64,000 nucleotides of DNA from contig OZ038530.1 of the NCBI GenBank assembly GCA_964036665.1, positions 6,958,501-7,022,500 of the forward strand, in the 5' to 3' direction. This DNA comes from Gordius sp. MW1. Its lineage: Eukaryota > Nematomorpha > Gordioida > Gordea > Gordiidae. Below the pieces are notes generated by a model. It did no database searches. It was given only the letters and a program-made list of their open reading frames with translations, and had not been told where the DNA came from. The position numbers and the translations under genes were made by a program. Shown piece after piece: positions 38,828 to 60,770 of this stretch. Position 1 is the first letter of the stretch; each line of letters begins with the position of its first letter.

Positions 38828-38946
38828 GGTTACGACCATATCACGTTGAAAACACCGGTTCCCTTCCGAACACCGAAGTTAAGCAACGTTGAGCCCGGTT
38901 AGTACTTGGATGGGTGACCGCTTGGGAATCCCGGGTGTTGTAACCT
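38828..38946 (+). rRNA. 5S rRNA: 5S rRNA, unit 70
   Basis: Consensus gene, type A. Spacer second direct repeat begins AATTAAAAAG, as after unit 82. Confidence 0.95.
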
Positions 38947-39390: not shown

Positions 39391-39509
39391 GGTTACGACC
39401 ATATCACGTTGAAAACACCGGTTCCCTTCCGAACACCGAAGTTAAGCAACGTTGAGCCCGGTTAGTACTTGGATGGGTGACCGCTTGGGAATCCCGGGTG
39501 TTGTAACCT
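39391..39509 (+). rRNA. 5S rRNA: 5S rRNA, unit 71
   Basis: Consensus gene, type B. Confidence 0.95.
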
Positions 39510-39953
39510 TTTTAAATACTTTTTTGAATCCAGTTACGATCAGGGGCGATCCTTAGCACATAGGGGACGCCGTAGGAATATATTTGAGAATTAATTTTTA
39601 ATTTTAAAGCGCCATTTACGGAGATTTAGGGATTTTATAGTATTTTGCGTCGGACAGAATGCTAGGCTAGGTGTCCGCCCTCAACGGAATTCACGTATTG
39701 GCGTCTGAAAGGGAGTGAGTAAATCGAGAACGCGATAATAAAACTGCGTCGAGCTGTATAATTACTACCTAACGATCAAAAAGTTACATATTCAATCAAA
39801 AAGTTACATATTCCTCGCATTGCGTCATTGATTAGGACAAAATACACACATTTCGATGCCCTCCCCTCGATTTTAAATGATAATACATGGGTGGGAAATA
39901 ATAAAGTAGGAATCTAGCCTGATTTATAAGCACAATTTTCGCTTTTAACCAAC

Positions 39954-40072
39954 GGTTACGACCATATCACGTTGAAAACAGCGGTTCCCTTCCGAACACC
40001 GAAGTTAAGCAACGTTGAGCCCGGTTAGTACTTGGATGGGTGACCGCTTGGGAATCCCGGGTGTTGTAACCT
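39954..40072 (+). rRNA. 5S rRNA: 5S rRNA, unit 72 (C28G)
   Basis: C28G, type A. First unit of the 3365-bp, six-unit block. Confidence 0.93.
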
Positions 40073-40516
40073 TTTTAAATACTTTTTTGAATCCAGTTAC
40101 GATCAGGGGCGATCCTTAGCACATAGGGGACGCCGTAGGAATATATTTGAGAATTAATTTTTAATTTTAAAGCGCCATTTACGGAGATTTAGGGATTTTA
40201 TAGTATTTTGCGTCGGACAGAATGCTAGGCTAGGTGTCCGCCCTCAACGGAATTCACGTATTGGCGTCTGAAAGGGAGTGAGTAAATCGAGAACGCGATA
40301 ATAAAACTGCGTCGAGCTGTATAATTACTACCTAACAATCAAAAAGTTACATATTCAATCAAAAAGTTACATATTCCTCGCATTGCGTCATTGATTAGGA
40401 CAAAATACACACATTTCGATGCCCTCCCCTCGATTTTAAATGATAATACATGGGTGGGAAATAAAAAAGTAGGAATCTTGCCTGATTTATAAGCACAATT
40501 TTCGCTTTTAACCAAC

Positions 40517-40635
40517 GGTTACGACCATATCACGTTGAAAACACCGGTTCCCTTCCGAACACCGAAGTTAAGCAACGTTGAGCCCGGTTAGTACTTGGAT
40601 GGGTGACCGCTTGGGAATCCCGGGTGTTGTAACCT
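40517..40635 (+). rRNA. 5S rRNA: 5S rRNA, unit 73
   Basis: Consensus gene with TACGGCG spacer marker. Confidence 0.95.
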
Positions 40636-41079
40636 TTTTAAATACTTTTTTGAATCCAGTTACGATCAGGGGCGATCCTTAGCACATAGGGGACGCCGTA
40701 GGAATATATTTGAGAATTAATTTTTAATTTTAAAGCGCCATTTACGGCGATTTAGGGATTTTATAGTATTTTGCGTCGGACAGAATGCTAGGCTAGGTGT
40801 CCGCCCTCAACGGAATTCACGTATTGGCGTCTGAAAGGGAGTGAGTAAATCGAGAACGCGATAATAAAACTGCGTCGAGCTGTATAATTACTACCTAACG
40901 ATCAAAAAGTTACATATTCAATCAAAAAGTTACATATTCCTCGCATTGCGTCATTGATTAGGACAAAATACACACATTTCGATGCCCTCCCCTCGATTTT
41001 AAATGATAATACATGGGTGGGAAATAAAAAAGTAGGAATCTTGCCTGATTTATAAGCACAATTTTCGCTTTTAACCAAC

Positions 41080-41195
41080 GGTTACGACATCACGTTGAAA
41101 ACACCGGTTCCCTTCCGAACACCGAAGTTTAGCAACGTTGAGCCCGGTTAATACTTGGATGGGTGACCGCTTGGGAATCCCGGGTGTTGTAAGCT
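41080..41195 (+). rRNA. 5S rRNA: 5S rRNA variant V1, unit 74
   Basis: 116 nt; full V1 set (3-nt loss, A54T, G75A, C117G) and 10-bp spacer loss. Confidence 0.85.
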
Positions 41196-41629
41196 TTTTA
41201 AATACTTTTTTGAATCCAGTTACGATCAGGGGCGATCCTTAGCACATAGGGGACGCCGTAGGAATATATTTGAGAATTAATTTTTAATTTTAAAGCGCCA
41301 TTTACGGAGATTTAGGGATTTTATAGTATTTTGCGTCGGACAGAATGCTAGGCTAGGTGTCCGCCCTCAACGGAATTCACGTATTGGCGTCTGAGTAAAT
41401 CGAGAACGCGATAATAAAACTGCGTCGAGCTGTATAATTACTACCTAACGATCAAAAAGTTACATATTCAATCAAAAAGTTACATATTCCTCGCATTGCG
41501 TCATTGATTAGGACAAAATACACACATTTCGATGCCCTCCCCTCGATTTTAAATGATAATACATGGGTGGGAAATAAAAAAGTAGGAATCTTGCCTGATT
41601 TATAAGCACAATTTTCGCTTTTAACCAAC

Positions 41630-41748
41630 GGTTACGACCATATCACGTTGAAAACACCGGTTCCCTTCCGAACACCGAAGTTAAGCAACGTTGAGCCCGG
41701 TTAGTACTTGGATGGGTGACCGCTTGGGAATCCCGGGTGTTGTAACCT
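41630..41748 (+). rRNA. 5S rRNA: 5S rRNA, unit 75
   Basis: Consensus gene, type B. Confidence 0.95.
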
Positions 41749-42192
41749 TTTTAAATACTTTTTTGAATCCAGTTACGATCAGGGGCGATCCTTAGCACAT
41801 AGGGGACGCCGTAGGAATATATTTGAGAATTAATTTTTAATTTTAAAGCGCCATTTACGGAGATTTAGGGATTTTATAGTATTTTGCGTCGGACAGAATG
41901 CTAGGCTAGGTGTCCGCCCTCAACGGAATTCACGTATTGGCGTCTGAAAGGGAGTGAGTAAATCGAGAACGCGATAATAAAACTGCGTCGAGCTGTATAA
42001 TTACTACCTAACGATCAAAAAGTTACATATTCAATCAAAAAGTTACATATTCCTCGCATTGCGTCATTGATTAGGACAAAATACACACATTTCGATGCCC
42101 TCCCCTCGATTTTAAATGATAATACATGGGTGGGAAATAATAAAGTAGGAATCTAGCCTGATTTATAAGCACAATTTTCGCTTTTAACCAAC

Positions 42193-42311
42193 GGTTACGA
42201 CCATATCACGTTGAAAACACCGGTTCCCTTCCGAACACCGAAGTTAAGCAACGTTGAGCCCGGTTAGTACTTGGATGGGTGACCGCTTGGGAATCCCGGG
42301 TGTTGTAACCT
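42193..42311 (+). rRNA. 5S rRNA: 5S rRNA, unit 76
   Basis: Consensus gene, type A. Confidence 0.95.
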
Positions 42312-42755
42312 TTTTAAATACTTTTTTGAATCCAGTTACGATCAGGGGCGATCCTTAGCACATAGGGGACGCCGTAGGAATATATTTGAGAATTAATTTT
42401 TAATTTTAAAGCGCCATTTACGGAGATTTAGGGATTTTATAGTATTTTGCGTCGGACAGAATGCTAGGCTAGGTGTCCGCCCTCAACGGAATTCACGTAT
42501 TGGCGTCTGAAAGGGAGTGAGTAAATCGAGAACGCGATAATAAAACTGCGTCGAGCTGTATAATTACTACCTAACAATCAAAAAGTTACATATTCAATCA
42601 AAAAGTTACATATTCCTCGCATTGCGTCATTGATTAGGACAAAATACACACATTTCGATGCCCTCCCCTCGATTTTAAATGATAATACATGGGTGGGAAA
42701 TAAAAAAGTAGGAATCTTGCCTGATTTATAAGCACAATTTTCGCTTTTAACCAAC

Positions 42756-42874
42756 GGTTACGACCATATCACGTTGAAAACACCGGTTCCCTTCCGAACA
42801 CCGAAGTTAAGCAACGTTGAGCCCGGTTAGTACTTGGATGGGTGACCGCTTGGGAATCCCGGGTGTTGTAACCT
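42756..42874 (+). rRNA. 5S rRNA: 5S rRNA, unit 77
   Basis: Consensus gene, type B; last unit of the first 3365-bp block. Confidence 0.95.
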
Positions 42875-43318
42875 TTTTAAATACTTTTTTGAATCCAGTT
42901 ACGATCAGGGGCGATCCTTAGCACATAGGGGACGCCGTAGGAATATATTTGAGAATTAATTTTTAATTTTAAAGCGCCATTTACGGAGATTTAGGGATTT
43001 TATAGTATTTTGCGTCGGACAGAATGCTAGGCTAGGTGTCCGCCCTCAACGGAATTCACGTATTGGCGTCTGAAAGGGAGTGAGTAAATCGAGAACGCGA
43101 TAATAAAACTGCGTCGAGCTGTATAATTACTACCTAACGATCAAAAAGTTACATATTCAATCAAAAAGTTACATATTCCTCGCATTGCGTCATTGATTAG
43201 GACAAAATACACACATTTCGATGCCCTCCCCTCGATTTTAAATGATAATACATGGGTGGGAAATAATAAAGTAGGAATCTAGCCTGATTTATAAGCACAA
43301 TTTTCGCTTTTAACCAAC

Positions 43319-43437
43319 GGTTACGACCATATCACGTTGAAAACAGCGGTTCCCTTCCGAACACCGAAGTTAAGCAACGTTGAGCCCGGTTAGTACTTGG
43401 ATGGGTGACCGCTTGGGAATCCCGGGTGTTGTAACCT
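43319..43437 (+). rRNA. 5S rRNA: 5S rRNA, unit 78 (C28G)
   Basis: C28G, type A; starts the second 3365-bp block. Confidence 0.93.
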
Positions 43438-43881
43438 TTTTAAATACTTTTTTGAATCCAGTTACGATCAGGGGCGATCCTTAGCACATAGGGGACGCCG
43501 TAGGAATATATTTGAGAATTAATTTTTAATTTTAAAGCGCCATTTACGGAGATTTAGGGATTTTATAGTATTTTGCGTCGGACAGAATGCTAGGCTAGGT
43601 GTCCGCCCTCAACGGAATTCACGTATTGGCGTCTGAAAGGGAGTGAGTAAATCGAGAACGCGATAATAAAACTGCGTCGAGCTGTATAATTACTACCTAA
43701 CAATCAAAAAGTTACATATTCAATCAAAAAGTTACATATTCCTCGCATTGCGTCATTGATTAGGACAAAATACACACATTTCGATGCCCTCCCCTCGATT
43801 TTAAATGATAATACATGGGTGGGAAATAAAAAAGTAGGAATCTTGCCTGATTTATAAGCACAATTTTCGCTTTTAACCAAC

Positions 43882-44000
43882 GGTTACGACCATATCACGT
43901 TGAAAACACCGGTTCCCTTCCGAACACCGAAGTTAAGCAACGTTGAGCCCGGTTAGTACTTGGATGGGTGACCGCTTGGGAATCCCGGGTGTTGTAACCT
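43882..44000 (+). rRNA. 5S rRNA: 5S rRNA, unit 79
   Basis: Consensus gene with TACGGCG marker; spacer also has ATTTGAAAATT. Confidence 0.95.
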
Positions 44001-44444
44001 TTTTAAATACTTTTTTGAATCCAGTTACGATCAGGGGCGATCCTTAGCACATAGGGGACGCCGTAGGAATATATTTGAAAATTAATTTTTAATTTTAAAG
44101 CGCCATTTACGGCGATTTAGGGATTTTATAGTATTTTGCGTCGGACAGAATGCTAGGCTAGGTGTCCGCCCTCAACGGAATTCACGTATTGGCGTCTGAA
44201 AGGGAGTGAGTAAATCGAGAACGCGATAATAAAACTGCGTCGAGCTGTATAATTACTACCTAACGATCAAAAAGTTACATATTCAATCAAAAAGTTACAT
44301 ATTCCTCGCATTGCGTCATTGATTAGGACAAAATACACACATTTCGATGCCCTCCCCTCGATTTTAAATGATAATACATGGGTGGGAAATAAAAAAGTAG
44401 GAATCTTGCCTGATTTATAAGCACAATTTTCGCTTTTAACCAAC

Positions 44445-44560
44445 GGTTACGACATCACGTTGAAAACACCGGTTCCCTTCCGAACACCGAAGTTTAGCAA
44501 CGTTGAGCCCGGTTAATACTTGGATGGGTGACCGCTTGGGAATCCCGGGTGTTGTAAGCT
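44445..44560 (+). rRNA. 5S rRNA: 5S rRNA variant V1, unit 80
   Basis: 116 nt; full V1 set, exactly 3365 bp after unit 74. Confidence 0.85.
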
Positions 44561-44994
44561 TTTTAAATACTTTTTTGAATCCAGTTACGATCAGGGGCGA
44601 TCCTTAGCACATAGGGGACGCCGTAGGAATATATTTGAGAATTAATTTTTAATTTTAAAGCGCCATTTACGGAGATTTAGGGATTTTATAGTATTTTGCG
44701 TCGGACAGAATGCTAGGCTAGGTGTCCGCCCTCAACGGAATTCACGTATTGGCGTCTGAGTAAATCGAGAACGCGATAATAAAACTGCGTCGAGCTGTAT
44801 AATTACTACCTAACGATCAAAAAGTTACATATTCAATCAAAAAGTTACATATTCCTCGCATTGCGTCATTGATTAGGACAAAATACACACATTTCGATGC
44901 CCTCCCCTCGATTTTAAATGATAATACATGGGTGGGAAATAAAAAAGTAGGAATCTTGCCTGATTTATAAGCACAATTTTCGCTTTTAACCAAC

Positions 44995-45113
44995 GGTTAC
45001 GACCATATCACGTTGAAAACACCGGTTCCCTTCCGAACACCGAAGTTAAGCAACGTTGAGCCCGGTTAGTACTTGGATGGGTGACCGCTTGGGAATCCCG
45101 GGTGTTGTAACCT
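44995..45113 (+). rRNA. 5S rRNA: 5S rRNA, unit 81
   Basis: Consensus gene, type B. Confidence 0.95.
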
Positions 45114-45557
45114 TTTTAAATACTTTTTTGAATCCAGTTACGATCAGGGGCGATCCTTAGCACATAGGGGACGCCGTAGGAATATATTTGAGAATTAATT
45201 TTTAATTTTAAAGCGCCATTTACGGAGATTTAGGGATTTTATAGTATTTTGCGTCGGACAGAATGCTAGGCTAGGTGTCCGCCCTCAACGGAATTCACGT
45301 ATTGGCGTCTGAAAGGGAGTGAGTAAATCGAGAACGCGATAATAAAACTGCGTCGAGCTGTATAATTACTACCTAACGATCAAAAAGTTACATATTCAAT
45401 CAAAAAGTTACATATTCCTCGCATTGCGTCATTGATTAGGACAAAATACACACATTTCGATGCCCTCCCCTCGATTTTAAATGATAATACATGGGTGGGA
45501 AATAATAAAGTAGGAATCTAGCCTGATTTATAAGCACAATTTTCGCTTTTAACCAAC

Positions 45558-45676
45558 GGTTACGACCATATCACGTTGAAAACACCGGTTCCCTTCCGAA
45601 CACCGAAGTTATGCAACGTTGAGCCCGGTTAGTACTTGGATGGGTGACCGCTTGGGAATCCCGGGTGTTGTAACAT
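45558..45676 (+). rRNA. 5S rRNA: 5S rRNA, unit 82 (A55T, C118A)
   Basis: A55T in box A, and C118A (GTAACATTTTT), which opens the terminal 1-118 pair of helix I. T-run intact. Type A. Confidence 0.91.
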
Positions 45677-46120
45677 TTTTAAATACTTTTTTGAATCCAG
45701 TTACGATCAGGGGCGATCCTTAGCACATAGGGGACGCCGTAGGAATATATTTGAGAATTAATTTTTAATTTTAAAGCGCCATTTACGGAGATTTAGGGAT
45801 TTTATAGTATTTTGCGTCGGACAGAATGCTAGGCTAGGTGTCCGCCCTCAACGGAATTCACGTATTGGCGTCTGAAAGGGAGTGAGTAAATCGAGAACGC
45901 GATAATAAAACTGCGTCGAGCTGTATAATTACTACCTAACAATCAAAAAGTTACATATTCAATTAAAAAGTTACATATTCCTCGCATTGCGTCATTGATT
46001 AGGACAAAATACACACATTTCGATGCCCTCCCCTCGATTTTAAATGATAATACATGGGTGGGAAATAAAAAAGTAGGAATCTTGCCTGATTTATAAGCAC
46101 AATTTTCGCTTTTAACCAAC

Positions 46121-46239
46121 GGTTACGACCATATCACGTTGAAAACACCGGTTCCCTTCCGAACACCGAAGTTAAGCAACGTTGAGCCCGGTTAGTACTT
46201 GGATGGGTGACCGCTTGGGAATCCCGGGTGTTGTAACAT
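46121..46239 (+). rRNA. 5S rRNA: 5S rRNA, unit 83 (C118A)
   Basis: Shares C118A with unit 82 but is type B and lacks A55T. One change in two adjacent, otherwise different units suggests local gene conversion. Confidence 0.92.
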
Positions 46240-46683
46240 TTTTAAATACTTTTTTGAATCCAGTTACGATCAGGGGCGATCCTTAGCACATAGGGGACGC
46301 CGTAGGAATATATTTGAGAATTAATTTTTAATTTTAAAGCGCCATTTACGGAGATTTAGGGATTTTATAGTATTTTGCGTCGGACAGAATGCTAGGCTAG
46401 GTGTCCGCCCTCAACGGAATTCACGTATTGGCGTCTGAAAGGGAGTGAGTAAATCGAGAACGCGATAATAAAACTGCGTCGAGCTGTATAATTACTACCT
46501 AACGATCAAAAAGTTACATATTCAATCAAAAAGTTACATATTCCTCGCATTGCGTCATTGATTAGGACAAAATACACACATTTCGATGCCCTCCCCTCGA
46601 TTTTAAATGATAATACATGGGTGGGAAATAATAAAGTAGGAATCTAGCCTGATTTATAAGCACAATTTTCGCTTTTAACCAAC

Positions 46684-46802
46684 GGTTACGACCATATCAC
46701 GTTGAAAACAGCGGTTCCCTTCCGAACACCGAAGTTAAGCAACGTTGAGCCCGGTTAGTACTTGGATGGGTGACCGCTTGGGAATCCCGGGTGTTGTAAC
46801 CT
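46684..46802 (+). rRNA. 5S rRNA: 5S rRNA, unit 84 (C28G)
   Basis: C28G, type A; starts the third, incomplete 3365-bp block. Confidence 0.93.
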
Positions 46803-47246
46803 TTTTAAATACTTTTTTGAATCCAGTTACGATCAGGGGCGATCCTTAGCACATAGGGGACGCCGTAGGAATATATTTGAGAATTAATTTTTAATTTTAA
46901 AGCGCCATTTACGGAGATTTAGGGATTTTATAGTATTTTGCGTCGGACAGAATGCTAGGCTAGGTGTCCGCCCTCAACGGAATTCACGTATTGGCGTCTG
47001 AAAGGGAGTGAGTAAATCGAGAACGCGATAATAAAACTGCGTCGAGCTGTATAATTACTACCTAACAATCAAAAAGTTACATATTCAATCAAAAAGTTAC
47101 ATATTCCTCGCATTGCGTCATTGATTAGGACAAAATACACACATTTCGATGCCCTCCCCTCGATTTTAAATGATAATACATGGGTGGGAAATAAAAAAGT
47201 AGGAATCTTGCCTGATTTATAAGCACAATTTTCGCTTTTAACCAAC

Positions 47247-47365
47247 GGTTACGACCATATCACGTTGAAAACACCGGTTCCCTTCCGAACACCGAAGTTA
47301 AGCAACGTTGAGCCCGGTTAGTACTTGGATGGGTGACCGCTTGGGAATCCCGGGTGTTGTAACCT
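47247..47365 (+). rRNA. 5S rRNA: 5S rRNA, unit 85
   Basis: Consensus gene with TACGGCG marker. Confidence 0.95.
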
Positions 47366-47809
47366 TTTTAAATACTTTTTTGAATCCAGTTACGATCAGG
47401 GGCGATCCTTAGCACATAGGGGACGCCGTAGGAATATATTTGAGAATTAATTTTTAATTTTAAAGCGCCATTTACGGCGATTTAGGGATTTTATAGTATT
47501 TTGCGTCGGACAGAATGCTAGGCTAGGTGTCCGCCCTCAACGGAATTCACGTATTGGCGTCTGAAAGGGAGTGAGTAAATCGAGAACGCGATAATAAAAC
47601 TGCGTCGAGCTGTATAATTACTACCTAACGATCAAAAAGTTACATATTCAATCAAAAAGTTACATATTCCTCGCATTGCGTCATTGATTAGGACAAAATA
47701 CACACATTTCGATGCCCTCCCCTCGATTTTAAATGATAATACATGGGTGGGAAATAAAAAAGTAGGAATCTTGCCTGATTTATAAGCACAATTTTCGCTT
47801 TTAACCAAC

Positions 47810-47925
47810 GGTTACGACATCACGTTGAAAACACCGGTTCCCTTCCGAACACCGAAGTTTAGCAACGTTGAGCCCGGTTAATACTTGGATGGGTGACCGC
47901 TTGGGAATCCCGGGTGTTGTAAGCT
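47810..47925 (+). rRNA. 5S rRNA: 5S rRNA variant V1, unit 86
   Basis: 116 nt; full V1 set and 10-bp spacer loss, 3365 bp after unit 80. Confidence 0.85.
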
Positions 47926-48359
47926 TTTTAAATACTTTTTTGAATCCAGTTACGATCAGGGGCGATCCTTAGCACATAGGGGACGCCGTAGGAATATATT
48001 TGAGAATTAATTTTTAATTTTAAAGCGCCATTTACGGAGATTTAGGGATTTTATAGTATTTTGCGTCGGACAGAATGCTAGGCTAGGTGTCCGCCCTCAA
48101 CGGAATTCACGTATTGGCGTCTGAGTAAATCGAGAACGCGATAATAAAACTGCGTCGAGCTGTATAATTACTACCTAACGATCAAAAAGTTACATATTCA
48201 ATCAAAAAGTTACATATTCCTCGCATTGCGTCATTGATTAGGACAAAATACACACATTTCGATGCCCTCCCCTCGATTTTAAATGATAATACATGGGTGG
48301 GAAATAAAAAAGTAGGAATCTTGCCTGATTTATAAGCACAATTTTCGCTTTTAACCAAC

Positions 48360-48478
48360 GGTTACGACCATATCACGTTGAAAACACCGGTTCCCTTCCG
48401 AACACCGAAGTTAAGCAACGTTGAGCCCGGTTAGTACTTGGATGGGTGACCGCTTGGGAATCCCGGGTGTTGTAACCT
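48360..48478 (+). rRNA. 5S rRNA: 5S rRNA, unit 87
   Basis: Consensus gene; spacer reads ACATATTTCTCGC near 48775. Confidence 0.95.
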
Positions 48479-48922
48479 TTTTAAATACTTTTTTGAATCC
48501 AGTTACGATCAGGGGCGATCCTTAGCACATAGGGGACGCCGTAGGAATATATTTGAGAATTAATTTTTAATTTTAAAGCGCCATTTACGGAGATTTAGGG
48601 ATTTTATAGTATTTTGCGTCGGACAGAATGCTAGGCTAGGTGTCCGCCCTCAACGGAATTCACGTATTGGCGTCTGAAAGGGAGTGAGTAAATCGAGAAC
48701 GCGATAATAAAACTGCGTCGAGCTGTATAATTACTACCTAACGATCAAAAAGTTACATATTCAATCAAAAAGTTACATATTTCTCGCATTGCGTCATTGA
48801 TTAGGACAAAATACACACATTTCGATGCCCTCCCCTCGATTTTAAATGATAATACATGGGTGGGAAATAAAAAAGTAGGAATCTTGCCTGATTTATAAGC
48901 ACAATTTTCGCTTTTAACCAAC

Positions 48923-49038
48923 GGTTACGACCATATCACGTTGAAAACACCGGTTCCCTCCCGAACACCGAAGTTAAGCAACGTTGAGCCCGGTTAGTAC
49001 TTGGATGGGTGACCGCTTGGGAATCCCGGGTGTTACCT
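48923..49038 (+). rRNA. 5S rRNA: 5S rRNA, unit 88 (T38C, 3-nt deletion at the 3' end)
   Basis: 116 nt. T38C in the helix III loop, and three bases lost from the 3' strand of helix I (GGGTGTTACC), so the closing stem is damaged. Probable pseudogene copy. Confidence 0.8.
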
Positions 49039-49478
49039 TTTTAAATACTTTTTTGAATCCAGTTACGATCAGGGGCGATCCTTAGCACATAGGGGACGCC
49101 GTAGGAATATATTTGAGAATTAATTTTTAATTTTAAAGCGCCATTTACGGAGATTTAGGGATTTTATAGTATTTTGCGTCGGACAGAATGCTAGTGTAGG
49201 TGTCCGCCCTCGGAATTCACGTATTGGCGTCTGAAAGGGAGTGAGTAAATCGAGAACGCGATAATAAAACTGCGTCGAGCTGTATAATTACTACCTAACA
49301 ATCAAAAAGTTACATATTCAACAAAAAGTTACATATTCCTCGCATTGCGTCATTGATTAGGACAAAATACACACATTTCGATGCCCTCCCCTCGATTTTA
49401 AATGATAATACATGGGTGGGAAATAAAAAAGTAGGAATCTTGCCTGATTTATAAGCACAATTTTCGCTTTTAACCAAC

Positions 49479-49597
49479 GGTTACGACCATATCACGTTGA
49501 AAACACCGGTTCCCTTCCGAACACCGAAGTTAAGCAACGTTGAGCCCGGTTAGTACTTGGATGGGTGACCGCTTGGGAATCCCGGGTGTTGTAACCT
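49479..49597 (+). rRNA. 5S rRNA: 5S rRNA, unit 89
   Basis: Consensus gene; spacer CTAGTGTAGG with the AAC loss. Confidence 0.95.
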
Positions 49598-50038
49598 TTT
49601 TAAATACTTTTTTGAATCCAGTTACGATCAGGGGCGATCCTTAGCACATAGGGGACGCCGTAGGAATATATTTGAGAATTAATTTTTAATTTTAAAGCGC
49701 CATTTACGGAGATTTAGGGATTTTATAGTATTTTGCGTCGGACAGAATGCTAGTGTAGGTGTCCGCCCTCGGAATTCACGTATTGGCGTCTGAAAGGGAG
49801 TGAGTAAATCGAGAACGCGATAATAAAACTGCGTCGAGCTGTATAATTACTACCTAACGATCAAAAAGTTACATATTCAATCAAAAAGTTACATATTCCT
49901 CGCATTGCGTCATTGATTAGGACAAAATACACACATTTCGATGCCCTCCCCTCGATTTTAAATGATAATACATGGGTGGGAAATAAAAAAGTAGGAATCT
50001 TGCCTGATTTATAAGCACAATTTTCGCTTTTAACCAAC

Positions 50039-50157
50039 GGTTACGACCATATCACGTTGAAAACACCGGTTCCCTTCCGAACACCGAAGTTAAGCAACGT
50101 TGAGCCCGGTTAGTACTTGGATGGGTGACCGCTTGGGAATCCCGGGTGTTGTAACCT
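50039..50157 (+). rRNA. 5S rRNA: 5S rRNA, unit 90
   Basis: Consensus gene. Spacer has the 4-bp gain, GATTCAGGG, and only one 19-bp direct repeat, giving a 547-bp unit. Confidence 0.95.
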
Positions 50158-50585
50158 TTTTAAATACTTTTTTGAATCCAGTTACGATCAGGGGCGATCC
50201 TTAGCACATAGGGGACGCCGTAGGAATATATTTGAGAATTAATTTTTAATTTTAAAGCGCCATTTACGGAGGGAGATTCAGGGATTTTATAGTATTTTGC
50301 GTCGGACAGAATGCTAGGCTAGGTGTCCGCCCTCAACGGAATTCACGTATTGGCGTCTGAAAGGGAGTGAGTAAATCGAGAACGCGATAATAAAACTGCG
50401 TCGAGCTGTATAATTACTACCTAACAATCAAAAAGTTACATATTCCTGGCATTGCGTCATTGATTAGGACAAAATACACACATTTCGATGCCCTCCCCTC
50501 GATTTTAAATGATAATACATGGGTGGGAAATAAAAAAGTAGGAATCTTGCCTGATTTATAAGCACAATTTTCGCTTTTAACCAAC

Positions 50586-50704
50586 GGTTACGACCATATC
50601 ACGTTGAAAACACCGGTTCCCTTCCGAACACCGAAGTTAAGCAACGTAGAGCCCGGTTAGTACTTGGATGGGTGACCGCTTGGGAATCCCGGGTGTTGTA
50701 ACCT
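50586..50704 (+). rRNA. 5S rRNA: 5S rRNA, unit 91 (T63A)
   Basis: T63A followed by TCGATTTAAATG; fourth copy of this module, 25.8 kb from the third. Confidence 0.93.
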
Positions 50705-51147
50705 TTTTAAATACTTTTTTGAATCCAGTTACGATCAGGGGCGATCCTTAGCACATAGGGGACGCCGTAGGAATATATTTGAGAATTAATTTTTAATTTT
50801 AAAGCGCCATTTACGGAGATTTAGGGATTTTATAGTATTTTGCGTCGGACAGAATGCTAGGCTAGGTGTCCGCCCTCAACGGAATTCACGTATTGGCGTC
50901 TGAAAGGGAGTGAGTAAATCGAGAACGCGATAATAAAACTGCGTCGAGCTGTATAATTACTACCTAACGATCAAAAAGTTACATATTCAATCAAAAAGTT
51001 ACATATTCCTCGCATTGCGTCATTGATTAGGACAAAATACACACATTTCGATGCCCTCCCCTCGATTTAAATGATAATACATGGGTGGGAAATAAAAAAG
51101 TAGGAATCTTGCCTGATTTATAAGCACAATTTTCGCTTTTAACCAAC

Positions 51148-51266
51148 GGTTACGACCATATCACGTTGAAAACACCGGTTCCCTTCCGAACACCGAAGTT
51201 AAGCAACGTTGAGCCCGGTTAGTACTTGGATGGGTGACCGCTTGGGAATCCCGGGTGTTGTAACCT
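51148..51266 (+). rRNA. 5S rRNA: 5S rRNA, unit 92
   Basis: Consensus gene, second half of the T63A module. Confidence 0.95.
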
Positions 51267-51710
51267 TTTTAAATACTTTTTTGAATCCAGTTACGATCAG
51301 GGGCGATCCTTAGCACATAGGGGACGCCGTAGGAATATATTTGAGAATTAATTTTTAATTTTAAAGCGCCATTTACGGAGATTTAGGGATTTTATAGTAT
51401 TTTGCGTCGGACAGAATGCTAGGCTAGGTGTCCGCCCTCAACGGAATTCACGTATTGGCGTCTGAAAGGGAGTGAGTAAATCGAGAACGCGATAATAAAA
51501 CTGCGTCGAGCTGTATAATTACTACCTAACGATCAAAAAGTTACATATTCAATCAAAAAGTTACATATTCCTCGCATTGCGTCATTGATTAGGACAAAAT
51601 ACACACATTTCGATGCCCTCCCCTCGATTTTAAATGATAATACATGGGTGGGAAATAAAAAAGTAGGAATCTTGCCTGATTTATAAGCACAATTTTCGCT
51701 TTTAACCAAC

Positions 51711-51829
51711 GGTTACGACCATATCACGTTGAAAACACCGGTTCCCTTCCGAACACCGAAGTTAAGCAACGTTGAGCCCGGTTAGTACTTGGATGGGTGA
51801 CCGCTTGGGAATCCCGGGTGTTGTAACCT
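51711..51829 (+). rRNA. 5S rRNA: 5S rRNA, unit 93
   Basis: Consensus gene; spacer GGACGCTGTAGG and 4-bp gain. Confidence 0.95.
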
Positions 51830-52277
51830 TTTTAAATACTTTTTTGAATCCAGTTACGATCAGGGGCGATCCTTAGCACATAGGGGACGCTGTAGGAATA
51901 TATTTGAGAATTAATTTTTAATTTTAAAGCGCCATTTACGGAGGGAGATTTAGGGATTTTATAGTATTTTGCGTCGGACAGAATGCTAGGCTAGGTGTCC
52001 GCCCTCAACGGAATTCACGTATTGGCGTCTGAAAGGGAGTGAGTAAATCGAGAACGCGATAATAAAACTGCGTCGAGCTGTATAATTACTACCTAACAAT
52101 CAAAAAGTTACATATTCAATCAAAAAGTTACATATTCCTCGCATTGCGTCATTGATTAGGACAAAATACACACATTTCGATGCCCTCCCCTCGATTTTAA
52201 ATGATAATACATGGGTGGGAAATAAAAAAGTAGGAATCTTGCCTGATTTATAAGCACAATTTTCGCTTTTAAATAAC

Positions 52278-52396
52278 GGTTACTACCATATCACGTTAAA
52301 AACACCGGTTCCCTTCCGAACACCGAAGTTAAGCAACGTTGAGCCCGGTTAGTACTTGGATGGGTGACTGCTTGGGAATCCCGGGTGTTGTAACCT
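52278..52396 (+). rRNA. 5S rRNA: 5S rRNA variant V2, unit 94
   Basis: G7T, G21A, C92T. Spacer combines GATTCTTAGTACAT, GAGAAGCGATA, TTTTTGATTAGG and a loss of about 40 bp before the next gene; 523-bp unit. Confidence 0.87.
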
Positions 52397-52800
52397 TTTT
52401 AAATACTTTTTTGAATCCAGTTACGATCAGGGGCGATTCTTAGTACATAGGGGACGCCGTAGGAATATATTTGAGAATTAATTTTTAATTTTAAAGCGCC
52501 ATTTACGGAGATTTAGGGATTTTATAGTATTTTGCGTCGGACAGAATGCTAGGCTAGGTGTCCGCCCTCAACGGAATTCACGTATTGGCGTCTGAAAGGG
52601 AGTGAGTAAATCGAGAAGCGATAATAAAACTGCGTCGAGCTGTATAATTACTACCTAACGATCAAAAAGTTACATATTCAATCAAAAAGTTAAATATTCC
52701 TCGCATTGCGTTTTTGATTAGGACAAAAAATACATGGGTGGGAAATAAAAAAGTAGGAATCTTGCCTGATTTATAAGCACAATTTTCGCTTTTAACCAAC

Positions 52801-52919
52801 GGTTACGACCATATCACGTTGAAAACACCGGTTCCCTTCCGAACACCGAAGTTAAGCAACGTTGAGCCCGGTTAGTACTTGGATGGGTGACCGCTTGGGA
52901 ATCCCGGGTGTTGTAACCT
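52801..52919 (+). rRNA. 5S rRNA: 5S rRNA, unit 95
   Basis: Consensus gene. The shortened spacer upstream keeps the TATA-like box and B flank. Confidence 0.95.
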
Positions 52920-53363
52920 TTTTAAATACTTTTTTGAATCCAGTTACGATCAGGGGCGATCCTTAGCACATAGGGGACGCCGTAGGAATATATTTGAGAA
53001 TTAATTTTTAATTTTAAAGCGCCATTTACGGAGATTTAGGGATTTTATAGTATTTTGCGTCGGACAGAATGCTAGGCTAGGTGTCCGCCCTCAACGGAAT
53101 TCACGTATTGGCGTCTGAAAGGGAGTGAGTAAATCGAGAACGCGATAATAAAACTGCGTCGAGCTGTATAATTACTACCTAACAATCAAAAAGTTACATA
53201 TTCAATCAAAAAGTTACATATTCCTCGCATTGCGTCATTGATTAGGACAAAATACACACATTTCGATGCCCTCCCCTCGATTTTAAATGATAATACATGG
53301 GTGGGAAATAAAAAAGTAGGAATCTTGCCTGATTTATAAGCACAATTTTCGCTTTTAACCAAC

Positions 53364-53482
53364 GGTTACGACCATATTACGTTGAAAACACCGGTTCCCT
53401 TCCGAACACCGAAGTTAAGCAACGTTGAGCCCGGTTAGTACTTGGATGGGTGACCGCTTGGGAATCCCGGGTGTTGTAACCT
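53364..53482 (+). rRNA. 5S rRNA: 5S rRNA, unit 96 (C15T)
   Basis: C15T; spacer has the 4-bp gain and the AAC loss. Confidence 0.93.
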
Positions 53483-53927
53483 TTTTAAATACTTTTTTGA
53501 ATCCAGTTACGATCAGGGGCGATCCTTAGCACATAGGGGACGCCGTAGGAATATATTTGAGAATTAATTTTTAATTTTAAAGCGCCATTTACGGAGGGAG
53601 ATTTAGGGATTTTATAGTATTTTGCGTCGGACAGAATGCTAGGCTAGGTGTCCGCCCTCGGAATTCACGTATTGGCGTCTGAAAGGGAGTGAGTAAATCG
53701 AGAACGCGATAATAAAACTGCGTCGAGCTGTATAATTACTACCTAACAATCAAAAAGTTACATATTCAATCAAAAAGTTACATATTCCTCGCATTGCGTC
53801 ATTGATTAGGACAAAATACACACATTTCGATGCCCTCCCCTCGATTTTAAATGATAATACATGGGTGGGAAATAAAAAAGTAGGAATCTTGCCTGATTTA
53901 TAAGCACAATTTTCGCTTTTAAATAAC

Positions 53928-54046
53928 GGTTACTACCATATCACGTTAAAAACACCGGTTCCCTTCCGAACACCGAAGTTAAGCAACGTTGAGCCCGGTT
54001 AGTACTTGGATGGGTGACTGCTTGGGAATCCCGGGTGTTGTAACCT
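53928..54046 (+). rRNA. 5S rRNA: 5S rRNA variant V2, unit 97
   Basis: Same gene and spacer changes as unit 94, including the roughly 40-bp loss; 523-bp unit. Confidence 0.87.
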
Positions 54047-54450
54047 TTTTAAATACTTTTTTGAATCCAGTTACGATCAGGGGCGATTCTTAGTACATAG
54101 GGGACGCCGTAGGAATATATTTGAGAATTAATTTTTAATTTTAAAGCGCCATTTACGGAGATTTAGGGATTTTATAGTATTTTGCGTCGGACAGAATGCT
54201 AGGCTAGGTGTCCGCCCTCAACGGAATTCACGTATTGGCGTCTGAAAGGGAGTGAGTAAATCGAGAAGCGATAATAAAACTGCGTCGAGCTGTATAATTA
54301 CTACCTAACGATCAAAAAGTTACATATTCAATCAAAAAGTTAAATATTCCTCGCATTGCGTTTTTGATTAGGACAAAAAATACATGGGTGGGAAATAAAA
54401 AAGTAGGAATCTTGCCTGATTTATAAGCACAATTTTCGCTTTTAACCAAC

Positions 54451-54569
54451 GGTTACGACCATATCACGTTGAAAACACCGGTTCCCTTCCGAACACCGAA
54501 GTTAAGCAACGTTGAGCCCGGTTAGTACTTGGATGGGTGACCGCTTGGGAATCCCGGGTGTTGTAACCT
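54451..54569 (+). rRNA. 5S rRNA: 5S rRNA, unit 98
   Basis: Consensus gene; counterpart of unit 95. Confidence 0.95.
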
Positions 54570-55013
54570 TTTTAAATACTTTTTTGAATCCAGTTACGAT
54601 CAGGGGCGATCCTTAGCACATAGGGGACGCCGTAGGAATATATTTGAGAATTAATTTTTAATTTTAAAGCGCCATTTACGGAGATTTAGGGATTTTATAG
54701 TATTTTGCGTCGGACAGAATGCTAGGCTAGGTGTCCGCCCTCAACGGAATTCACGTATTGGCGTCTGAAAGGGAGTGAGTAAATCGAGAACGCGATAATA
54801 AAACTGCGTCGAGCTGTATAATTACTACCTAACAATCAAAAAGTTACATATTCAATCAAAAAGTTACATATTCCTCGCATTGCGTCATTGATTAGGACAA
54901 AATACACACATTTCGATGCCCTCCCCTCGATTTTAAATGATAATACATGGGTGGGAAATAAAAAAGTAGGAATCTTGCCTGATTTATAAGCACAATTTTC
55001 GCTTTTAACCAAC

Positions 55014-55132
55014 GGTTACGACCATATTACGTTGAAAACACCGGTTCCCTTCCGAACACCGAAGTTAAGCAACGTTGAGCCCGGTTAGTACTTGGATGGG
55101 TGACCGCTTGGGAATCCCGGGTGTTGTAACCT
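55014..55132 (+). rRNA. 5S rRNA: 5S rRNA, unit 99 (C15T)
   Basis: C15T; counterpart of unit 96 but retains AAC in the spacer. Confidence 0.93.
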
Positions 55133-55580
55133 TTTTAAATACTTTTTTGAATCCAGTTACGATCAGGGGCGATCCTTAGCACATAGGGGACGCCGTAGGA
55201 ATATATTTGAGAATTAATTTTTAATTTTAAAGCGCCATTTACGGAGGGAGATTTAGGGATTTTATAGTATTTTGCGTCGGACAGAATGCTAGGCTAGGTG
55301 TCCGCCCTCAACGGAATTCACGTATTGGCGTCTGAAAGGGAGTGAGTAAATCGAGAACGCGATAATAAAACTGCGTCGAGCTGTATAATTACTACCTAAC
55401 AATCAAAAAGTTACATATTCAATCAAAAAGTTACATATTCCTCGCATTGCGTCATTGATTAGGACAAAATACACACATTTCGATGCCCTCCCCTCGATTT
55501 TAAATGATAATACATGGGTGGGAAATAAAAAAGTAGGAATCTTGCCTGATTTATAAGCACAATTTTCGCTTTTAACCAAC

Positions 55581-55699
55581 GGTTACGACCATATCACGTT
55601 GAAAACACCGGTTCCCTTCCGAACACCGAAGTTAAGCAACGTTGAGCCCGGTTAGTACTTGGATGGGTGACCGCTTGGGAATCCCGGGTGTTGTAACCT
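55581..55699 (+). rRNA. 5S rRNA: 5S rRNA, unit 100 (last complete copy)
   Basis: Consensus gene; spacer GGACGCTGTAGG and 4-bp gain as in units 52 and 93. The spacer after it is complete up to the next gene start. Confidence 0.95.
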
Positions 55700-56147
55700 T
55701 TTTAAATACTTTTTTGAATCCAGTTACGATCAGGGGCGATCCTTAGCACATAGGGGACGCTGTAGGAATATATTTGAGAATTAATTTTTAATTTTAAAGC
55801 GCCATTTACGGAGGGAGATTTAGGGATTTTATAGTATTTTGCGTCGGACAGAATGCTAGGCTAGGTGTCCGCCCTCAACGGAATTCACGTATTGGCGTCT
55901 GAAAGGGAGTGAGTAAATCGAGAACGCGATAATAAAACTGCGTCGAGCTGTATAATTACTACCTAACAATCAAAAAGTTACATATTCAATCAAAAAGTTA
56001 CATATTCCTCGCATTGCGTCATTGATTAGGACAAAATACACACATTTCGATGCCCTCCCCTCGATTTTAAATGATAATACATGGGTGAGAAATAAAAAAG
56101 TAGGAATCTTGCCTGATTTATAAGCACAATTTTCGCTTTTAACCAAC

Positions 56148-56156
56148 GGTTACGAC
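56148..56156 (+). pseudogene. Truncated 5S gene, unit 101 (9 nt)
   Basis: GGTTACGAC, the first 9 nt of the gene, after an intact type B flank with the TATA-like box near 56119. Then the terminal inverted repeat of a hAT element begins. The rest of the gene is not found on the far side of the element. Confidence 0.9.
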
Positions 56157-56170
56157 TAGGGCTGCACCGA
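56157..56170 (+). repeat. hAT left terminal inverted repeat
   Basis: TAGGGCTGCACCGA, abutting the ninth base of the truncated 5S gene. Exact complement of the right end. The true element end could be one base further in. Confidence 0.88.
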
Positions 56171-56256
56171 CATCGGTATCGGTATCGGTACCGATATCAC
56201 GATTTTTTAACGATATCGGTATCGATTATTAATCGACCGATACCGATACCGATACT
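56171..56256. repeat. Left subterminal ATCGGT/ACCGAT motif cluster
   Basis: Runs of ATCGGT on the + strand, then ACCGAT in the opposite sense (for example CGATACCGATACCGATAC near 56238). The segment can fold on itself. Subterminal repeats of this kind are transposase-binding sites in several hAT elements; that role is inferred here. Confidence 0.7.
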
Positions 56257-56714
56257 TGAAACTTTTTTTACAAATATTTTATATTTGTTAGAGCTGTATA
56301 TCTATATACTTTTTAAATTAAATTTTACTTAATTGCTGTTAAATCTAATTTATTTTTTCATTGATTCATTCATTCAAATTTCTACCACCACTTATTTATA
56401 TTATTATGTAAGTTAGTTTATATTTAAAATTTATAATATAATGTATTTATTTTTATATTATATATTGTATATACGTTTTTAATATATATATTATATAATA
56501 TTTATCAACAAAGCATTTAAAATATTTTAAATTAGAATAACATTCTATGTTGTGTATTATTAATTCAAATGGCCTTACATTGACTTTATTTAAATTAAAT
56601 TATATTTAGGTCTAAAAGCAAGTCATTAATTTGGAATTATTTTATAATTGATGAGAACTCAGAACCTATTTTGCCAGGTAAAGTATATAATTGTACTTCT
56701 AAAATAATTATTAA
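56257..56714. other. AT-rich interior of the hAT element
   Basis: Very AT-rich with long TA runs around 56440-56500. I see no open reading frame or recognisable transposase segment, so the 5' part of the transposase gene has been lost or has decayed. Confidence 0.6.
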
Positions 56715-57156
56715 GAGAACGACGAACCATTACTACCTGTAAAACAACTTACGAAAACAAAGAAATTTAATATATGGGATACATATAATGAAACAGTGGA
56801 TTCAATGGCTGGAACTATTGATACAAACATCATCATAGGTATATTTACTTAGCTAATATTAATTTTCATTTTAAGGTGATCAGTGTTTATTGGAATTAGA
56901 CCCATATCTCAAAACACCAATTTACAAGGGTAATAGAATCATAAACGAAACATCAATGGGATCATATGTAAATCCATTAGAATATTGGGCAACAAATAGT
57001 TCCGATTTGCCAATATTAGCAACACTGGCCAGAAAATATCTGTCGTCACCCGCCACATCTATCCCTTCTGAATCTATTTTTAGTACAACTGGTGATATTG
57101 ATGGTCCACATAGAAGATCTCTTCTACCGGAGACTATTGAAAAATTACATTTATGA
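56715..57156 (+). pseudogene. hAT transposase C-terminal (dimerisation) fragment
   Basis: The open part at 56890-57156 gives 88 residues with the marks of the hAT C-terminal dimerisation domain: NPLEYW (28-33), LARKYL (46-51), PATSIPSE (54-61), IFSTTG (63-68), and LLPE (78-81) before a TGA. No ATG precedes it in frame; the computed start is TTG. A second open piece at 56715-56838, with a WDTYNE stretch, fits the linker normally found before this domain. The two pieces join in frame if 56839-56875 (GT...AG, 37 bp) is removed as a tiny intron. The DDE catalytic core and the BED zinc finger are absent, so this copy cannot encode an active transposase. Confidence 0.82.
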
Positions 57157-57227
57157 AAAAAATTTTGGAATATTTTAAATAAAGCTTTATAAATATTAAC
57201 AGGTGTCATTTTTATAAGATGTAAAAT

Positions 57228-57293
57228 ATCGGTATCGGTATATTTATTTAAATATCGGTAGTATCGGTATCGGTATCGGTTAAAAATTTGATA
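57228..57293. repeat. Right subterminal ATCGGT motif cluster
   Basis: ATCGGT repeats near 57228, 57253 and 57263-57280, then GATATCGG next to the right inverted repeat. Mirror counterpart of the left cluster. Confidence 0.68.
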
Positions 57294-57307
57294 TCGGTGC
57301 AGCCCTA
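57294..57307 (-). repeat. hAT right terminal inverted repeat
   Basis: TCGGTGCAGCCCTA, complement of the left end. Followed by a TA run and not by 5S sequence. Confidence 0.88.
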
Positions 57308-57343
57308 ATATATATATTACATAAATTGCATAACAATTAATAA

Positions 57344-57500
57344 CATGGTGTAGCCATGGAGTGACAGGGAGGTGTGGCAGCCCCCTCTAAATCCTTAAAT
57401 TCTTAAAATTTTAATATTTTTGGCTAAAATTGATAAACATTAATTTTTGCCCCTCCCTGAATCATTATTACCCCCCTCTAAATCCAATCCTGGCCCATGC
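57344..57500. mobile_element. Short MITE-like repeat (GTAGCCA family), copy 1
   Basis: Begins CATGGTGTAGCCATGGAG and ends CCAATCCTGGCCCATG, which are imperfect inverted ends. The interior has C-rich CCCCTCCCTGA and CCCCCCTCTAAATCC tracts around an AT core. The same layout is seen at 63217-63370. Family unknown; mobility is inferred from recurrence and the inverted ends. Confidence 0.55.
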
Positions 57501-59233
57501 ATATTATTGCCAAACTTATAATTTTATTATTAACTTACTTGTATAAGTGTACAATTAATAATTAGTTATTTTATGATGGCTTATAAATTTAATATTAGTG
57601 TTAAGATCATAGGTGAATTTGGTTATTATTATATTTAAATATGCTATACTAAGTCTTATTAGAATAAAAACCGATTTAAAAATATTTTGAAACTTTTATT
57701 TGTTCAGATTAACCGTTTTAAGGCATTAAGTTCCGTATAATATAAGAGGAATAAACGTCCTATATAAACGACATTTTTCTAGCAAGGTCTTAGCTAAGAT
57801 AGTAATGCTTTTTTGGCACATACAGTTTCTAATCCAGAATTTACCAAATTACGCCATCTGGATTAAGGCAGTTTAATTTTCATTTACATACATTTAATTA
57901 CCAACCAATTTAACATGTCTCTATCCTTAAAACCGTTGAATGCATACCGCAGACATAATCATTAATTAATCTTTCGGGACTCAATTTTATTTAAGTTAAT
58001 TCAAATATGAAAAATAAGAAGATCGTAGAAAAAGATTACAGAGCTAATGTTCAAAGGATCATTTTTCTAATTTCGCTATTTTTCTTAGTCTATTCGAAAA
58101 TATTCTTGGAGGCTGTGATCGTACAACCAATTTTCAGCAACAAAAGTTAGCAACACTTCAATTTGTCGATTATGATCTTAAAATTTAGTTGGTTTTTGTA
58201 AGAAATTTTAATATGACCCAGATGTTTAAATGGCTAGAATTTTAAAATTATAAAGCAAACTGGAGATTTTGCTTTTAAACTATTGGAACCTTTGCCCCTA
58301 ATTTGAGTCATAAAGTCTTTAATTAGACCATGTGTAAAATTAATTTTTTTTGTATACAATTTTTATTTACTTAAAAATTTAAGGCTCTAGAATACGTATT
58401 AATATAATTAATATTTATGATCACATAAAGTAGGTAATATTAATTGTACATAATGGACCTAAATAAGTTATGGCGAGAACATTTGAGGTCGCAAAAAACC
58501 AATTATTAACCATGTGATTTTTTAATGATATTAGATTTTCAAAAGTTCAAAATAATTATATCTATTGGCGATATTAACTTTGTATTTATAAATAGGTTGA
58601 TTTTTATCAACTTAATGTCTAATTAAAATAGCTTGTCATTCAATTATAATTTTATCGTTTCCAAAGTAGTATTAATTATTTAGATTTCATCCTGTTTCAA
58701 GATTAATTCATCTTGCATTTTTTAATTTATAACAAACAAGTTTTTAATATAAACTCTTTTATTACAAAAAAATTTTAAATTAATAAAATACCTCCAAAGT
58801 GTGCATTTATTCCTATTTAATAAGTGAAAAAGCTCTCAATTAAAAATCAATATAACTTCACCGAAATTCATAAATGATGTATATAAATTAAATAAAAGCA
58901 TATTTATTTTTACTATTAAATCATAGTATAGACCATGAATGTTTGTATACATGGCGAAAAAACAATAACAAATGTTAAGCGCTAATTTCATTTGTGAGGA
59001 TAGAAAAATTGGATTTTTGGACTTTTATAATTTTGAAACTAATAACTATAAAACAATATATTTTTTACAAAATAGCTATCTCTAACATTTAAATTAAAAA
59101 AAAATTGAAATTTTTGGCTCTTTGTATCTAGTAACTTTATTTTATGAAACTTTGACTTGCAGGGTCATATTGACCCTTAAGGTTTAAATTAAATACATTA
59201 AAAACATTGTGGTTATAATATAGCACGGGAATA
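57501..59233. other. AT-rich stretch without recognisable genes
   Basis: Low-complexity AT-rich sequence with frequent stops in all frames. No credible reading frame, RNA gene or clear repeat unit found. Confidence 0.7.
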
Positions 59234-59283
59234 GTGAGAGTAAAGTGGTGGAGACCAGGAAGGAGTTCGTTAAATAATAAAAA

Positions 59284-59400
59284 TTACGCCCTTCGGGCGT
59301 GGGGCTTCGCCCCCAAACCCCCTGCTGGGGGCTCCGCCCCCAGTCTCCCGACCCCCGGAGAAGGGGGAGAAGGGAAGGGGGGGGGAAGGGAAGAGGGGAC
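59284..59400. repeat. GC-rich hairpin cluster in AT-rich DNA
   Basis: Successive perfect hairpins: CGCCC-TTC-GGGCG at 59287-59299, GGGGC-TTC-GCCCC at 59301-59313, and CTGGGGGC-TCC-GCCCCCAG at 59325-59343. The last overlaps an alternative pairing of CCCCC (59318) with GGGGG (59327). A G-rich tract follows to 59400. Two short + strand reading frames cross here, but they arise from the low-complexity GC sequence and I do not call them genes. Confidence 0.65.
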
Positions 59401-59433
59401 GACTCATCTATTCTACGTATAAATGTAGCTTAT

Positions 59434-59453
59434 TTGCTATGCAATTTATGGGC
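59434..59453 (-). repeat. 20-bp dispersed repeat, inverted copy
   Basis: TTGCTATGCAATTTATGGGC, the exact complement of 62629-62648. A related direct form with one change lies near 57321-57340. It may be one end of a small element that includes the GC-rich cluster. Confidence 0.5.
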
Positions 59454-59739
59454 GAGAAAGGTGAGAAGGGGCGAGAATGCCTATAGGGGGGTATTAAATG
59501 CAAAAGAATTGGACTGACGGGCATAGGTAGGTATCAATGTTAGCCAAAAAAACGTAAAATTTTATTTTGATTTACAATTTGACGAAGCGGGAAAATATAA
59601 ATGAGTTAAGTGTATAAATATCGGCTGGATAAAATATAAATATCATCTTTATTTTTTATTTTTTAATTAATGAAATTAGGTTAAACATTTTAGGTTAGGA
59701 GGGTGAAGGGGCTAAAATGTAACTCTTGGAGGAAGCTTT

Positions 59740-59961
59740 ATTGAAATTTTTTGTCATTTAGTGGGGGGGACTAGTTTTGCCTGGGTTTTGCTTGGTCGAC
59801 CTTTAGTTCAAATAAGAAAACCCCCCTAAATGACGAAAATAAAATTTTTCAATGAAAAAACCCGTAAAAATTAAAAATTGTAGGTTTGGCCCCCCCCCCT
59901 GATTGAAATTTTAAACGTTTCGCCTCCCCCCCCCCCAAACCAAAACCTGGCTACGTCCATG
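59740..59961. mobile_element. Inverted repeat and third CTGGCTACG-type element end
   Basis: TTGTCATTTAGTGGGGGG near 59751 is inverted near 59820-59840 as CCCCCCTAAATGACGAAA, an imperfect stem of roughly 30 bp. Poly-C tracts follow, then CCAAAACCTGGCTACGTCCATG ending at 59961, the same type of end as at 63370. The left end is not clear. Confidence 0.45.
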
Positions 59962-60540
59962 TCCCTGTCTGATCAATTAAATTTCATTTTTGATAAACAT
60001 ATTTTTACGATAAAATGTTTTTTAAAAGTGTACTGAATTATAGAGTTAGACGTCATTTATAATAGGTTCATATGGAAAACATAACATTATACAAAGACAT
60101 TTGGAATATATTAAAAATGTATTTAAAAAGGAGAGATTAATGTTTATTAAATGAAAGATTAAATTATTGAAGGAGAGATTAATGTTTATTAAATGATAAA
60201 AGAGGCGTTAAATAACAGAGATTAGATAAGGTATATACATAAGAAGTTGGGGCAGCATAAGGAGGCTGGATTATTACCAAAAGTTCCGAGAAGATTGAAT
60301 ACATTAAAATATAAAGCTAGAAAAAATGCAATCATTTCATTTTTAAGTTAAACTGTTTGAACCAAAACAAAATCTAGTGGAACGTTATTGTAAGTAAAGG
60401 AAACCTTTAAATTAGTATGCCCTAATTCGCAGTTAATCAAATTAAAGATTAATTTTCTAATTTAAAAGATTTAAAAATAAATAGCCCTATAAATATTTGA
60501 GTGATATAAACAGCTGACTTGGCGCTCTAAGTGTATTTGC
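59962..60540. repeat. AT-rich stretch with a 42-bp-spaced direct repeat
   Basis: GGAGAGATTAATGTTTATTA at 60130 recurs at 60172 with the following AATGA. Nothing else recognisable; no gene found. Confidence 0.6.
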
Positions 60541-60770
60541 CTGAAGTGAGGGGGAATAGAAGAGTAACTACCTCCTTCCCCCCCTTTCACTCCGTTAAAA
60601 CTAAACGCGCACACTATCCCCCCTTTCCCTCCGTTAATTTGCCAAAAGCATATAAAAATCAATAATAATAAAAAGGGGTTGAGGGATGATCTCCTCCACT
60701 CCCGCCCCCTAATAATACCAACTCAGCGGTGGAAGGGTAAGATAGGGAGGGGTAGGGGTTTAACGTATAA
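60541..60770. repeat. C/G-rich low-complexity stretch
   Basis: Two near-identical tracts, CCCCCTTTCACTCCGTTAA near 60579 and CCCCCTTTCCCTCCGTTAA near 60619, then G-rich GGGAGGGGTAGGGG. A 63-residue minus-strand frame spans it but has no protein-like character. Confidence 0.5.

Follow-up and report, generated by a model that had tools for sequence, protein, structure and literature searches.

The end of a 5S rRNA gene array in Gordius sp. MW1 lies inside a gene, at an internally deleted hAT element with mismatched flanks

Results

The window, the whole stretch of 64,000 nucleotides analysed here (C4:6958501-7022500), was examined in the context of a searched genome of 212 Mb in 12 contigs. It contains a tandem array of 5S rRNA genes, a gene fragment that closes the array, a hAT element that cuts this gene short, and AT-rich DNA beyond it (Table 1). 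The last of the 100 complete genes identified with Rfam lies at 55581-55699. To the left of the window, 5S units still continued over 9.9 kb. A 49-base 5S pattern (at most three mismatches) gave 561 forward matches and one reverse match genome-wide, and the lowest forward position among the matches listed was C4:6699963. Judging from this span (~314 kb, at ~560 bp each), all 561 genes would belong to one array of about 315 kb.

Table 1. Features at the right-hand end of the 5S array, in window coordinates.
Feature	Position	Strand	Remarks
Complete 5S units, 100, ~563 bp each	97..56147	+	Rfam, 100 matches; array extends further left
Cut 5S gene GGTTACGAC	56148..56156	+	9 nt long; the left target-site copy is formed by its final 8 bases (56149-56156)
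hAT element, internally deleted, 1151 bp	56157..57307	+	14-bp exact terminal inverted repeats TAGGGCTGCACCGA
Left part of hAT, up to GAACTCAG	56157..56662	+	Matches 5' parts of sister copies
Internal join CAG-A-ACC	56660..56666	+	Extra A at 56663; ~1.4 kb of the full-length element absent
Shared block, 2,578 bp	56660..59237	.	Equals C6:2703155-2705733, reverse strand; one indel, zero substitutions
Right part of hAT with hAT dimerisation region	56664..57307	+	One base fewer than C6, at 57148
Right flank, 1,930 bp, 75% A+T	57308..59237	.	Long matches only in the window and C6
Right 8-bp flank ATATATAT	57308..57315	.	No copy of GTTACGAC
Sequence past the block	59238..59285	.	Not common to C6
Start of high-copy repeat (TACGCCCTTCGGGCG...)	59286..60600	+	

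The left end of the array, at ~C4:6,699,460 (L072), starts mid-gene in a damaged 5S gene. Neither a hAT in the preceding 1.9 kb nor a transposon at the join was found, and this end was therefore rejected as a partner of the element in the window. Toward the right end, the substitutions relative to the consensus averaged 3.2 in the last 10 units and 2.5 in the other 90, and some of these final units have exact duplicates further inside the array. A degenerate array edge is thus not decisive as the mark of an old end. Variant units recur as exact copies within the array (window positions 13610, 15846, 41080, 44445, and 47810; 52278 and 53928). One such unit, 550 bp long and carrying a damaged gene (92 bits), is present five times, with three of the copies spaced 3,365 bp apart, and a 523-bp variant unit is present twice, at a spacing of 1,650 bp. 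These recurrences appear to be signs of higher-order repeats. The lone 5S match outside the array, at C1:10286522 (L126), is 114 bp long and covers the RNA from about its eighth base to a TTT, with neither a spacer nor a hAT. On these features, it is probably a retropseudogene rather than the lost part of the array.

The initial annotation had placed the element 9 nt into the 101st 5S gene. The 9-nt fragment is as described, while the ordinal is valid for the window only, in an array of ~561 genes. The annotation had also stated that the 8-bp flanks differ, that the right side is unrelated, AT-rich DNA, and that a simple insertion would not suffice; the differing flanks were confirmed, the right side proved rich in A+T, and the failure of a simple insertion was supported. 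The left flank is GTTACGAC and the right flank is the octamer listed in Table 1, leaving the element without an 8-bp target-site duplication. A 5S gene continuing past 57307 would read CATATCACGTTG; no 14-mer of the last complete 5S unit was found on either strand in 57308-64000. The mismatched flanks argue against an undisturbed insertion, and not against membership in the hAT family. The terminal inverted repeats match exactly over 14 bp at both ends.

A further discontinuity, overlooked in the initial annotation, lies inside the element at 56660-56664, at the start of the block that C6 also carries. At this point, the left part (...GATGAGAACTCAG) is joined through one extra A to the right part (ACCTATTTTGCC...), and the full-length copies read ...CAGCACATATT and ...CATCTACACCTATT at the corresponding points. 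When up to two mismatches were allowed, the join sequence GAACTCAG-A-ACCTATT was detected just twice, once in the window and once, with a single mismatch, on C6. The element keeps only the C-terminal part of the transposase.

Relatives of ~2577 bp were found at C7:16251541-16254116 and C6:8144716-8147292. The full-length copy at C6:8144716 contains the hAT dimerisation region (PF05699, E = 5.7e-15) and a BED zinc finger (zf-BED, PF02892, E = 6.2e-6), and its middle frame matched no Pfam family. The terminal repeat gave 330 genome matches at no more than one mismatch, corresponding to ~165 hAT copies. We read the ends of 23 sister copies, the flanks of the last few by eye, and set aside four in which an end was truncated, altered, or outside the stretch. 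Among the 19 readable copies, 13 carry an 8-bp duplication (one with seven of the eight bases, and one lacking 3 bases of the terminal repeat), one carries a shifted 6-bp duplication, and five carry none (3, 4, 5, 5, and 7 mismatches in 8, the 3-mismatch case being the least certain). Mismatched flanks are thus fairly common in this hAT family, and the missing duplication at the array end carries some information without being unique. Four of the five mismatched copies were examined further: two lie between inverted repeats (83% over 295 bp for L097/L098 at C7:6307277-6308335; 89% over 45 bp for the other), and the remaining two gave no flanking inverted-repeat match. A hAT pair at C4:6348439 and C4:6351932, considered as a control for exchange, was discarded because the first copy has a perfect duplication, indicating no exchange between them.

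Internal deletions are also frequent in the family, as seven of the first ten copies compared at their ends are far below 2.6 kb. The copy L002 (C2:20036050, 89%) was rejected as one sharing the deletion of the window element, since its interior is different. We compared the two halves of the window element with 15 left-part and 11 right-part sister sequences and observed divergences of 2/504 on the left and 7/637 on the right. This difference is not significant (Fisher p = 0.31) and is not decisive for or against a chimeric element.

The right half of the element, together with its 1,930-bp downstream flank, recurs on C6. No other long match to the flank was present among the 40 scored candidates. 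The alignment of window 56655-59237 with C6:2703155-2705738, reversed, showed 99.92% identity. The difference at 56659 (T versus A) belongs to the joining end, and the base lost from the window at 57148 is present in both C6 and the hAT copy L002. At the far side, the high-copy repeat begins only at ~59286, so the block edge at 59237 is not the insertion point of this repeat. At the near side, the C6 block starts within ~3 bp of the internal join of the window element, a point through which the full-length copies run straight. By our arithmetic, a random start within the element would fall this close with a chance of ~0.6% (7/1151), which suggests that the join and the block edge share one cause.

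The block has the features of a patch, being near-identical over 2,578 bp with one indel and having non-homologous or microhomology joins at both ends. The left join shares GAAC[T/A]C with the helitron end on C6, and the right join has an extra CC on C6. C6 keeps AGA before ACC, like the window, and the AG is native to the left half of the hAT, which favours C4 as the donor. The left half of the hAT and C6 also share GAAC[T/A]CAG, however, so that the reverse direction is possible. On the bases at this join, we lean slightly toward C4 as the donor of the C6 block.

On C6, the block adjoins an open frame of 1580 codons with Helitron_like_N and PIF1 domains. This Helitron-type gene breaks off at GATGAACAC, where the block takes over. 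Ahead of that join, 1,267 bp of C6 sequence are 100% identical (rounded) to copies on C3 and C8 and 98% identical to two copies on C2. From ...GATGAACAC, the C3 copy runs on with GTCGAACTT and enters an endonuclease part (Exo_endo_phos, only slightly above the cut-off), whereas C6 continues with AGAACCTATT. The other end of the block on C6 reads AATAGTGA, then CC, then GTGCTC, and the last of these opens a ~2.5-kb stretch (C6:2700673-2703152) with 93-97% identity to C3:22458797-22461283. The remainder of the helitron, represented by the 4 kb that follow in C3, gave only short matches (at most 78 bp) within C6:2695500-2714900 and none on the far side of the block. With the stretch shared with C3 lying directly beside the block, that part of C6 looks like a patchwork.

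Two other repeats were noticed near the block. A hairpin motif like AATTGCTATGCAATTTATG, which we take to be a possible helitron terminal hairpin, lies at window ~57321-57344, ~14 bp to the right of the hAT, and also occurs at L018, L020, L053, and L074. A 129-bp tandem repeat occupies window 61665-62188, and related repeats were seen downstream of the C3 helitron and beside the hAT at C6:19158 kb.

Discussion

The array end may be a repaired chromosome break inside a hAT that resided in a 5S gene, joined to a block that carries the right half of another hAT. We tentatively assign this reading a probability of roughly 0.45. Judging from the left flank, a hAT copy would have inserted into a 5S gene at the target GTTACGAC. 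The chromosome would subsequently have broken inside the element, and this position would have lost the element's right half along with the second copy of the target and the remainder of the 5S gene. The remaining left half would then have been connected by end joining, with few or no matching bases and the extra A, to the block at 56664-59237, consisting of the right half of another hAT insertion and its downstream flank. The same block, starting within ~3 bp of the join, would have been copied between C4 and C6. The join, the block, the mismatched flanks, and the lack of the partner in the assembly are observed; we infer the order of events, as well as the derivation of the two halves from different insertions.

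A single break-and-join event of this kind would account at once for the missing 1.4 kb, the mismatch between the 8-bp flanks, and the array ending here. As such repair is non-reciprocal, no hAT end continuing into the remainder of the 5S gene would be expected. C6 shows the same style of join, between the broken Helitron-type gene and the block, and work on rice documents both deletions and filler DNA of foreign origin at transposon breaks (PMC4423477). Several observations weigh against break repair. Internal deletions are common in this hAT family, and the deletion may therefore be a separate, older event. The divergence of the two halves does not differ significantly, and with 5 of 19 sister copies lacking a duplication, mismatched flanks need no special event. 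If the C6 block came from C4, as the shared AGA suggests, there is no explanation for the two starts coinciding, and the deletion and the mismatched flanks might be two older events, both of kinds common in this family.

Alternative transposition, or an adjacent deletion, by the hAT transposase is the strongest competitor to break repair, and we consider it unlikely. In such a process, the right end of an already deleted hAT would be cut at its exact terminus and joined to a new target beginning with ATATATAT, while the left end stayed in place and the DNA to the right was removed; the block would later have been copied to C6. Both terminal repeats are intact to the last base with the mismatch beginning exactly at the terminus, and the five sister copies without a duplication likewise have intact ends, as this process would predict. 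Maize hAT elements leave the old duplication at one end and no match at the other (PMC3744419), and a rice excision removed 2,479 bp exactly from the element end (PMC4423477). However, alternative transposition needs a separate internal deletion and does not explain why the C6 block starts at that deletion. Moreover, apart from the window and its C6 twin, the search for a copy of the new target beside another hAT end gave one candidate, an exact ATATATAT at a rearranged copy at C6:19158133; ~0.1-0.2 such occurrences are expected by chance among 330 ends (our arithmetic), and the candidate may be one of them.

An assembly error, with the array end attached to an incorrect hAT copy, is considerably less probable. 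An array of 561 copies is hard to assemble, and the element is one of ~165 similar copies. Nevertheless, the hAT right half occurs together with its flank at two loci that have different neighbours and one indel between them, and no third place shows the internal join. As read from the two assembled loci, the right-hand junction is therefore probably real, and a misjoin there is unlikely. A false join would need to lie at the left junction between the 5S gene and the hAT or in the left half (56156-56660).

The least probable explanation is ectopic homologous recombination, in which a hAT of the 5S array would have exchanged with one located at the ATATATAT site: it would produce mismatched flanks with intact ends and could draw on ~165 copies (~330 repeat matches), but the reciprocal partner, a hAT right end followed by GTTACGACCATATYACGTTGA, gave 0 matches in the genome at up to three mismatches; no left flank among the window and the five mismatched sister copies equalled the right flank of another, directly or as the reverse complement (compared by eye); the sole internal breakpoint observed is non-homologous and accompanied by the 1.4-kb deletion; and nothing in the divergence of the halves points to chimerism. 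The initial annotation had proposed the search for this partner and had offered hAT-hAT recombination, deletion beside the element, and assembly error as explanations. The first was not borne out, the second is possible, and the third has become less likely at the right-hand junction.

To our knowledge, base-level accounts of how tandem rRNA gene arrays come to have their ends are rare. The junction described here is defined to the base, and a near-identical twin exists on another chromosome; sequencing reads or the genome of a relative could thus reveal the order of events. Mismatched flanks (5 of 19 copies) are also common enough for a study of hAT-associated break repair. In the broadest form of the break-repair reading, transposon breaks would set the physical end of the 5S array, a 2.6-kb patch would have come from another chromosome, and array edges in this genome would be both made and moved by the repair of transposon breaks. 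We regard this generalization as doubtful.

The locus is a new case of known processes, each of them known from other organisms, and its mechanism is narrowed rather than proven. The window element is a non-autonomous, internally deleted derivative of the hAT superfamily. With this superfamily it shares the terminal inverted repeats, the 8-bp duplications in most readable sister copies, and the BED finger and dimerisation region in the full-length relative; it differs in having no 8-bp duplication itself and only the C-terminal part of the transposase. In the partly accessible literature that we searched, we recognised no hAT at the end of a 5S array. The Galileo inversions of Drosophila buzzatii are the benchmark for ectopic recombination, offering both junctions, exchanged duplications, and chimeric copies (PMC2775673). 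At the array end, as at the Galileo breakpoints, a rearrangement junction carries a transposon whose ends are intact and whose flanks do not match, whereas the window has one junction, no partner, and no proof of chimerism.

After alternative transposition of maize Ac and other hAT elements, one flank can lack a matching duplication (PMC3744419). Reversed-ends transposition of Ac has in common with the window that one end keeps its flank and the other shows no 8-bp match; it differs in that neither a second element nor a copy of the new target is identified in the window. Transposon excision in rice leads to flanking deletions and to foreign filler DNA of 1-123 bp (PMC4423477). The window would share with this system the foreign segments acquired during repair and a deletion that starts exactly at the element end, while its block is 2,578 bp long and is situated where an rRNA gene array ends.
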